Source: an uncultured Erythrobacter sp. (GTDB lineage Bacteria; Pseudomonadota; Alphaproteobacteria; Sphingomonadales; Sphingomonadaceae). Taken from it: a stretch of 64,000 bases of DNA. Location: contig NZ_CANMIJ010000001.1 of NCBI RefSeq assembly GCF_947497915.1, positions 473,501 through 537,500 of the forward strand, written 5' to 3'. The number at the start of each line of letters is the position of its first letter. Position 1 is the stretch's first letter. The notes beneath the pieces were generated by a model. The model was not told where the DNA came from, did not search any database, and worked only from the letters and a program-made list of their open reading frames with translations. A program made the translations under genes and the position numbers. Positions 12,163-15,069 of this stretch are shown piece by piece.

Positions 12163-13572
12163 TTACGAGCTGTAATACATGTCGAACTCGACCGGAGCTG
12201 GTGTCGTTTCGAGGCGGATGACCTCGTCCCATTTCAGTTCCATGTAAGCATCGATCTGATCTTTGGAGAACACATCGCCTTTCAACAGGAATTCGTGATC
12301 GGCTTCGAGCGCTTCCAGTGCTTCGCGCAGGCTGCCGCACACGGTTGGAACTTCGGCGAGCTCTGCTGGCGGCAGGTCGTAAAGGTTCTTGTCCATGGCT
12401 TCGCCCGGGTGGATCTTGTTCTCGATCCCGTCGAGGCCTGCCATCAGCAGGGCCGAGAATGCGAGATACGGGTTGCAGATCGCATCAGGGAAGCGGAACT
12501 CAACGCGCTTGGCTTTCTCACCCGCGCCGTATGGAATGCGGCACGATGCCGAGCGGTTGCGCGCTGAGTAAGCGAGCAGAACCGGCGCTTCAAAGCCCGG
12601 AACCAGACGCTTATAGCTGTTGGTGGTCGCGTTGGTGAAGGCGTTGACGGCTTTTGCGTGCTTGATGACGCCGCCGATGTAATAGAGGCAGTTCTCCGAC
12701 AGACCGGCATATTCATTGCCTGCAAATGTTGGCTTACCATCTTTCCAGATCGACATGTGGCTGTGCATGCCGCTGCCATTATCGTCCTTGATCGGCTTCG
12801 GCATGAAAGTCGCGGTTTTGCCGTAAGCGTGGGCGACCTGCTGCGTCACATATTTGTAGACCTGCACCTGATCAGCCGCAGTGGTCAGCGATGAGTAAGT
12901 AATACCCAGTTCATGCTGCGCTGCGGCCACTTCGTGGTGGTGTTTATCCATGTTGAGACCCATTTCCATCATCGTGGAAACCATCTCCGCGCGGATATCC
13001 ATGGCGCTATCGACCGGAGCAACGGGGAAATAACCGCCCTTCGCACGCGGACGGTGGCCCATATTGCCCATCTCGTATTCTTTGCCAGTGTTGGTTGGCA
13101 ATTCGATGTCGTCGATGGCGTAGCCCGATCCGGCATAGCCGTCTTCGAAACGGACATCGTCGAACATGAAGAATTCCGGCTCTGGCCCGACATAAACGGT
13201 GTCACCAATGCCGGTGGAAGCAAGATACGCCTCGGCGCGTTTCGCGGTTGAACGCGGATCGCGCGAGTAGAGCTGGCCGTCGGATGGTTCGACAATGTTG
13301 CAGAACACCGACAGCATCGGAGTTGCAGAGAACGGGTCGACATAGATCGCGTCGAGATCCGGTTTCAGGATCATGTCGCTTTCGTTGATTGTCTTCCAAC
13401 CTTCGATCGATGAACCGTCAAACATCAGGCCATCTTCAAGCGCGTCTTCGTCCATGACGCTGGCCGCCATGGTGAGGTGCTGCCACTTGCCCTTAGGGTC
13501 GGTAAAGCGAAGGTCGAGCCATTCGATTTCCTCGTCCTTGATCTGTTTAAGGACGTCTTTGATGCTTGCCAT
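12163..13572 (-). CDS. glnA: type I glutamine synthetase
   Basis: Condenses glutamate and ammonia with ATP to form glutamine; a cytoplasmic dodecamer. At 469 residues it matches GSI-beta length. Visible family signatures are the N-terminal FDGSSIEGW, the [14 protein letters not shown]-binding loop and the adenylylation site [11 protein letters not shown] with tyrosine near residue 398. It is therefore probably controlled by GlnE adenylylation and, through it, by the PII protein encoded just upstream. The glnB stop and the glnA start are separated by 65 bases on the same strand, which fits a glnB-glnA operon, the common alphaproteobacterial arrangement. Confidence 0.98.
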
Positions 13573-13637: not shown

Positions 13638-13982
<345 letters not shown>

Positions 13983-14002
13983 TTACCCCACCCCTTGGTC
14001 CG

Positions 14003-14017
14003 TTAGTGACACACTAA
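14003..14017. promoter_or_regulatory. palindrome near the predicted glnB transcription start
   Basis: TTAGTG-ACA-CACTAA is a perfect 6-3-6 inverted repeat 27 bases upstream of glnB. If the sigma-54 element at 14023-14038 is used, the palindrome covers the +1 position, so a protein bound here would be placed to block initiation. The cognate regulator cannot be named from sequence. Confidence 0.45.
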
Positions 14018-14022
14018 ACATA

Positions 14023-14038
14023 ACCAAGAATCGTGCCA
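14023..14038 (-). promoter_or_regulatory. candidate sigma-54 promoter of glnB-glnA
   Basis: Read on the minus strand, the sequence is TGGCACGATTCTTGGT. This fits the RpoN consensus TGGCACG-N4-TTGCW with a perfect -24 element and one mismatch at the -12 position (TTGG for TTGC). It sits about 45 bases upstream of the glnB ATG, a normal distance. Promoters of this class need an enhancer-binding activator such as NtrC. Confidence 0.5.
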
Positions 14039-14110
14039 ATTGTTCCGGCACAGGGAAAGGGTCTACCGAGCGTCAAATTTGCGCGGGGGATTGCTTATAT
14101 TGAATCCATC

Positions 14111-14133
14111 GCGTGCCTAAATTTTGGGCATGC
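14111..14133. promoter_or_regulatory. imperfect palindrome, candidate NtrC-type enhancer site
   Basis: GCGTGCCTAAATTTTGGGCATGC is nearly symmetric and has TGC-N11-GCA, the outer spacing of NtrC sites (TGCACC-N5-GGTGCA), though the inner bases match poorly. It lies about 75 bases upstream of the sigma-54-like element, a usual enhancer distance. Because it is also just past the argC stop, it could instead be a weak argC terminator stem; it lacks a T-run. Confidence 0.3.
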
Positions 14134-14139
14134 TTCCGT

Positions 14140-15069
14140 TCAAAGCCGCAGTCCAGTTGTCTCCGGCAGGCCGCACATAATGTTCAAATTCTGGATCGCA
14201 GCGCCGCTTGCGCCTTTGCCGAGGTTGTCGAGCATCGCGATCAGGCGGGCCTGTGCTCCGTCTTCGCTAGTGAAGACATGCAGGCCCAATCCGTCCCATG
14301 GCTCTGCGCCCTGCTTCACCAACATTTCGGCTGGCGGCTGGCTGTGCGCGTGGACATGCACGACGCCGCTGCCCGCGTAATGGCCGGTCAGCGCGCTTTC
14401 CAGGAACGCCGCCGATGTCGCGCCGGGCATGGCGGAGAGGGGGAGGGGCACATCGACCAGCATCCCGCGATGAGCGGGCACCACGCTGGGCGAGAAAACG
14501 GGCTCATTAGTCAGGCCCGCATATGCCTTCATCTCGGGCAAATGCTTGTGGGTCAGCGCCAAACCGTAGGCGCGAAAGGCGATGGTTTGGTCATCGTCAA
14601 AACGGTCTATCAAAGCGTTGCCGCCGCCCGAATATCCGCTGACGGCGTTGACGGTGTAGGGCCACTCGGCTGGCAATACGGCGGCTTTAATCAGCGGTGC
14701 GACCAGCGCGAGAAATCCGGTGGGGTAACAGCCGGGGTTTGAGACAAATTGCGCTTCTGCGATTGCGTCATGGCCGATCAGTTCGGGAAAGCCATAGGTC
14801 CAGCCTTTGGCGACGCGGTGTGCGCTGGATGCGTCGATAATGCGGGTGTCGGCTCCTTCGACAAGAGCAACCGCATCACGCGCAGCACCATCGGGCAAGC
14901 ATAGGATCCCGATGTCGGCGGCGTGCAGCGCGTCGCGGCGCGCGTCTTCATCTTTGCGGCGATCATCGCTGAGCACGATCAATTCAAACTCTTCGCGGCC
15001 AGCAAGCCGGTCACGAATTTCCAGGCCGGTCGTTCCGGCGGCGCCATCGATGAAAATACGGGTTGTCAT
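14140..15069 (-). CDS. argC: N-acetyl-gamma-glutamyl-phosphate reductase, type 2
   Basis: NADPH-dependent reduction of N-acetylglutamyl phosphate to the semialdehyde, third step of arginine synthesis; cytoplasmic. The dinucleotide-binding start is FIDGAAGTTGLEI, the catalytic cysteine is C114 in SNPGCYPTG, and the substrate loop is VSGYSGGGN. At 309 residues it belongs to the short type-2 ArgC class rather than the roughly 345-residue type 1. No other arg gene is adjacent; the next gene upstream on the same strand is a small SH3-like protein about 20 bases away, so they may be cotranscribed. Confidence 0.95.
   Translation of the reverse strand: MTTRIFIDGAAGTTGLEIRDRLAGREEFELIVLSDDRRKDEDARRDALHAADIGILCLPDGAARDAVALVEGADTRIIDASSAHRVAKGWTYGFPELIGHDAIAEAQFVSNPGCYPTGFLALVAPLIKAAVLPAEWPYTVNAVSGYSGGGNALIDRFDDDQTIAFRAYGLALTHKHLPEMKAYAGLTNEPVFSPSVVPAHRGMLVDVPLPLSAMPGATSAAFLESALTGHYAGSGVVHVHAHSQPPAEMLVKQGAEPWDGLGLHVFTSEDGAQARLIAMLDNLGKGASGAAIQNLNIMCGLPETTGLRL

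Follow-up and report, generated by a model that had tools for sequence, protein, structure and literature searches.

The window, as we call the whole 64,000-nucleotide stretch of DNA that was analysed, carries argC, a 163-bp gap, glnB, and glnA on its minus strand, in that order (Table 1). Read toward glnB, the gap contains TGCCCAAAATTTAGGCA, then TTGGCACGATTCTTGGT, within which lies TGGCACGATTCTTGG, and finally TTAGTGTGTCACTAA. The first of these begins 9 bp after the argC stop codon. The initial annotation had described three features in this gap, namely a sigma-54 element, a palindrome over the predicted transcription start, and a distal palindrome, and all three were found at its coordinates when the minus strand was re-read. 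For comparison, upstream regions of glnB were gathered from ~90 relatives in the genus, and searches of the window's genome covered its two contigs (G000, 2.9 Mb).

Table 1. Genes and promoter features of the argC-glnB-glnA locus (positions are those of the window)
Feature	Position	Strand	Basis and remarks
glnA (type I glutamine synthetase)	12163..13572	-	co-directional with glnB; TIGR00653, 650 bits against a cut-off of 429
glnB (PII protein)	13638..13976	-	GTG start; P-II family models 9e-52, under their E. coli-type equivalog cut-offs
6-3-6 inverted repeat TTAGTG-ACA-CACTAA	14003..14017	.	perfect; covers -5 to +10
Predicted transcription start (+1)	14012	-	12 bases downstream of -12, from sigma-54 geometry
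Sigma-54 (-24/-12) element TGGCACG-ATTC-TTGG, TGGCACGATTCTTGG	14024..14038	-	sequence match and conservation in the genus
Candidate weak second NtrC half-site, TGGATTCAATATAAGCA	14092..14108	-	centre -88; the main box is 22 bp away
NtrC box (TGC-N11-GCA), TGCCCAAAATTTAGGCA	14114..14130	-	centre -110; top-scoring box of each of the 84 genus promoters
argC, gene upstream of glnB	14140..15069	-	TIGR01851, 363 bits against a cut-off of 230

The sigma-54 element matches TGGCACG-N4-TTG exactly. Its -24 GG lies at 14037-14036 and G(-13) at 14025, so that TGG at -26/-24, G at -13, and the GG-N10-G spacing are all present, and T(-11) follows at 14023. The sole deviation is at -12 (14024), where the consensus C is replaced by G. 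The element had been described as one mismatch from the RpoN consensus, as re-reading the strand confirmed. TTGGCAYGNNNCTTG or a near form of it precedes glnB in 84 of the ~90 genus relatives, where TTGGCAYGRTTCTTG is conserved. Positions -26 to -13 are almost invariant (82-84 relatives), and on a tree of the genus built from argC, neither -26 to -20 nor -16 to -13 shows any variation except for C/T at -21. At -11, A or T was found in 81 of 82 relatives. RpoN, whose absence would have spoken against the initial annotation, is encoded in the window's genome. Judged by this conservation, the sigma-54 element is beyond chance and functional.

Two further observations concern the same bases. The spacer includes GATTC (14028-14032), and most members of the genus have a CcrM methylation site (GANTC) here. 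We rejected a maintained CcrM site, as A and G at -19 switch often, with at least 13 changes (GATTC to GGTTC). Overlapping the -24 element on the minus strand is TGCCGGAACAATTGGCA (14036-14052), which also matches TGC-N11-GCA, and a TGC at this offset occurs in 7 of 84 relatives, against ~1.3 expected. It is conceivable that TGCCGGAACAATTGGCA is an NtrC pseudo-site over the core.

Conservation also marked the distal palindrome. The initial annotation had noted a TGC-N11-GCA palindrome at enhancer distance, and a corresponding box was present in 84/84 glnB promoters scored, with a median score of 29.1 compared with 3.9 for the 99th percentile of shuffled sequence. The genus consensus of this box is TGCCTAAAATTTAGGCA. 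Its distance varies across the genus from -98 to ~-180, most commonly -153 to -168. In the window's genome, TGCCYAANNTTNRGGCA occurs perfectly in exactly two places, before glnB and before dusB. The second copy (L231:1501-1517 = G000 C1:1192066-1192082) lies 9 bp ahead of the start codon of dusB, between dusB(-ntrBC) and ispDF, and adjoins the ntr genes. Because the other of the two perfect copies lies at the ntrBC locus, and because the box is so widely conserved, we identify the distal palindrome, from these comparisons, as the NtrC box of the clade and as functional. The position of the dusB copy suggests NtrC autorepression.

The ntr locus of the window's genome is ordered ntrB-ntrC-ntrY-ntrX. 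Its NtrC has the GAFTGA loop, which is required to work on sigma-54, and its best family was TIGR01818 (554.6 bits against a cut-off of 558.6). NtrX (L100:1027-2412) was found to lack this loop and, for that reason, probably does not work on sigma-54. Between the main box and the sigma-54 element, TGGATTCAATATAAGCA is kept in the three nearest relatives and scores close to background, and we list it tentatively as a second NtrC half-site. An RGCA ending at -57 in 31 of 84 relatives is a possible further conserved half-site.

The inverted repeat over +1 behaved differently from these two elements. On the minus strand it reads TTAGTG-TGT-CACTAA. The initial annotation was right that a perfect repeat covers the predicted start, and took it to imply a second, repressing regulator layered on NtrC control. 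The exact placement of the repeat at the predicted start fits an operator, as does a core, GTGTGTCAC, common to the window and its two nearest relatives. However, all six pairs are present in only one of 84 aligned genomes, that of the window; the two nearest relatives keep 4 of 6 pairs, and the next (L115) is without the GTG half. When the nearest relatives were aligned, the right arm (TGTCA) was better kept than the left. A search of the window's genome for the motif, as the initial annotation had proposed, returned no other copy, either perfect or with one mismatch, and copies with up to two mismatches were fewer than for a reversed control (14 vs. 102). Chance also accounts readily for such a repeat: Markov shuffling of the 163-bp region yields one or more 6-bp inverted repeats (spacer 0-10) 35% of the time, and the chance of one in a given 36-bp stretch is ~6%. 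On conservation and chance we rejected the operator, which we regard as very improbable; the repeat is probably a by-product without conserved function. What stands of the proposed layered glnB-glnA promoter is the sigma-54 element and the distal NtrC enhancer, but not the repressor layer.

We then turned to the one base at which the glnB element departs from consensus. Among 84 promoters of the genus, the base at -12 was T (41), G (26), or A (17), and never C. On the argC tree, -12 changed among G, A, and T at least 20 times (a parsimony count on a quick tree of ~390 bases, and hence a lower bound) with zero changes to C. If one in three changes could go to C, the probability of such an outcome is ~3 in 10,000 by rough arithmetic. 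The pattern extends to other genera of Sphingomonadaceae, in which TTG[AGT] was found at glnB in 40 of 50, and the tree places this state at the base of the family, with a few coupled reversals. Elsewhere glnB mostly has VTGC, that is, C at -12 and no T at -15, in 27 of 29 promoters from other families of the order and 32 of 41 from other alphaproteobacteria. The full TGGCACG-N4-TTGC was found at glnB in 2 of ~205 promoters tabulated, plus L047. These counts suggested that T(-15) and C(-12) exclude each other across alphaproteobacteria; we did not adopt this idea, because the counts, although striking, reduce to five supported independent pairs and the sign test was not significant. One of the records, L016, is titled 'Bacillus sp. 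2B10' but contains the glnB locus of a sphingomonad (92% identity at the protein level), which points to a mislabelled or contaminated assembly.

A change in the sigma-54 specificity of the clade that made C at -12 irrelevant would account for the family-wide loss of this base at glnB. Two other sigma-54 promoters of the same genus contradict this explanation, which we consider hardly credible: -12 was C in 40/40 glnK promoters and in 29/30 psp promoters, and in a family-wide set including five members of the genus it was C at glnK in 48/48. As read from these alignments, the mismatch that the initial annotation had noted is conserved as a base that is never C, and this is specific to the gene, a point that annotation had missed.

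The glnK promoters differ from glnB in their enhancers as well. The full TGGCACG-N4-TTGC is present in 34/40 glnK promoters of the genus, and their NtrC boxes are tandem and degraded, at -118 and -99, with a median score of 18.1, compared with 29.1 at glnB. The distance between the two boxes is exactly 19 bp in almost every member of the genus (L381, L255-L294), and each degraded box has one strong half-site, at its outer end. By sequence, the two promoters are of reciprocal build: at glnB a single near-perfect NtrC box accompanies a core that departs from consensus, and at glnK weak tandem boxes accompany a consensus core.

Taken together, our analysis of sequence and conservation suggests, with a probability of roughly 0.8, that an NtrC-activated sigma-54 promoter drives glnB-glnA and that its core is kept away from the consensus at -12. 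By analogy with known NtrC promoters, phosphorylated NtrC would bind the strong -110 box and loop onto sigma-54 polymerase at -24/-12, raising glnBA when nitrogen is short. When nitrogen is plentiful, the non-C base at -12 might allow basal transcription of glnBA, or the passage of other transcription. The opposite build of glnK-amtB would be expected to make it silent, switch-like, and cooperative.

Sigma-54 promoters are conventionally presented as all-or-none switches that stay silent unless activated, C(-12) forming part of the lock. The consensus C(-12) is not strictly required of an NtrC-dependent sigma-54 promoter. The cell needs glnBA in nitrogen-rich medium as well, but not glnK-amtB. 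According to PMC4551910, C(-12) occurs in 96% of bacterial sigma-54 promoters and restrains basal transcription. Activator-independent (bypass) sites in E. coli do not strictly retain C(-12), and all sites at which sigma-54 represses sigma-70 transcription have it (PMC4551910). Since C(-12) is thus known to silence the closed complex and to accompany the blocking of overlapping sigma-70 transcription, and since glnBA, unlike glnK-amtB, is also needed in nitrogen-rich medium, glnBA may be kept leaky or non-blocking.

Leaky basal transcription as the purpose of the -12 effect is a tentative proposal, to which we give rather less than even odds. A non-C base at -12, as in activator-bypass sigma-54 promoters, is indeed what we found at glnB. 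However, the evidence for bypass comes from E. coli and partly from sigma-54 without Region I, avoidance of C could also simply weaken the core, and leakiness through -12 is no general property of glnB promoters, given the predominance of C(-12) without T(-15) outside Sphingomonadaceae. The broader proposal is that selection against C at -12 has given glnBA of Sphingomonadaceae a leaky enhancer-dependent promoter throughout the family. This promoter would supply glutamine synthetase even with no activator, NtrC would raise its output, and glnK would be the tight counterpart. We consider this possible but less likely than not.

A non-C base might instead only weaken the core, lowering closed-complex occupancy and maximum output and so setting the dose of GlnB and glutamine synthetase with no basal leak. 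Other alphaproteobacterial families are equally one base off, through the VTGC form, and the rarity of the complete element at glnB stands against its prevalence at glnK in the genus, both of which would fit a core kept weak. Within the genus, however, the element shows no relaxation elsewhere and the route is always -12, and the tree does not show the deviations at -12 and -15 to be interchangeable. We regard this explanation as unlikely, although it retains appreciable weight.

Blocking of other transcription offers another explanation, in which closed complexes held by C(-12) would obstruct transcription that enters from argC or starts at an undetected sigma-70 promoter, and a non-C base would keep the passage clear. 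The constant C(-12) of sigma-70-repressing sites (PMC4551910) agrees with it, and argC lies near glnB and is co-directional. On the other hand, no overlapping sigma-70-like promoter was detected in 13900-14250 by the E. coli consensus, the one consensus used. Such a road-block is improbable in our judgement, and we give no better odds to the avoidance of a blocking closed complex as the purpose of the -12 effect. What is left would fall to a weaker core or to some other purpose.

If glnB-glnA is driven by an NtrC-activated sigma-54 promoter held off consensus at -12, the conserved exclusion of C(-12), specific to this gene and found at an essential operon, points to evolutionary tuning of the lock itself, base by base. 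As PII paralogues in one cell, glnB and glnK offer natural promoters for measuring in vivo the effect of -12 on basal transcription, road-blocking, and induction, and the inverse matching of enhancer strength to core strength amounts to a design rule that can be tested directly. Within the part of the literature that we covered, we found no reports of a conserved C(-12) exclusion or of a reciprocal glnB/glnK build, and no publications on sphingomonad NtrC or mapped starts.

A glnB promoter under NtrC and sigma-54 is already known, as part of the core of the NtrC regulon (PMC5343134). In S. meliloti, mapped starts have been matched to sigma-54 promoters that include those of glnB and glnK (PMC3616915), and the NtrC ChIP peaks of Caulobacter include glnBA, glnK, and ntrB (PMC10274813). 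The promoter described here shares the spacing of the -24 GG and -13 G and the distal NtrC palindrome with E. coli glnAp2, S. meliloti glnB, and Caulobacter glnBA. As at the glnBA or glnA promoters of these organisms, the same gene pair is involved, NtrC and RpoN are encoded, and an NtrC box is also found at ntrBC. It differs from them in lacking C at -12 throughout the genus and in having one near-perfect NtrC box. Moreover, NtrC of the window's genome has GAFTGA, whereas that of Caulobacter does not (PMC10274813).

The activator-bypass promoters of E. coli resemble the glnB promoter in having a canonical -24 element and in not retaining C(-12) (PMC4551910). Those sites are low-level and were detected with sigma-54 lacking Region I, whereas the deviation at glnB persists across a family, at one essential operon, and together with an NtrC enhancer. 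A further comparison is with the glnK-amtB promoter in the same genomes, which has the same regulators, a paralogous PII gene, and the TGGCACG -24 element. There, a consensus TTGC core is joined to degraded tandem NtrC boxes 19 bp apart, and glnB is the reverse.
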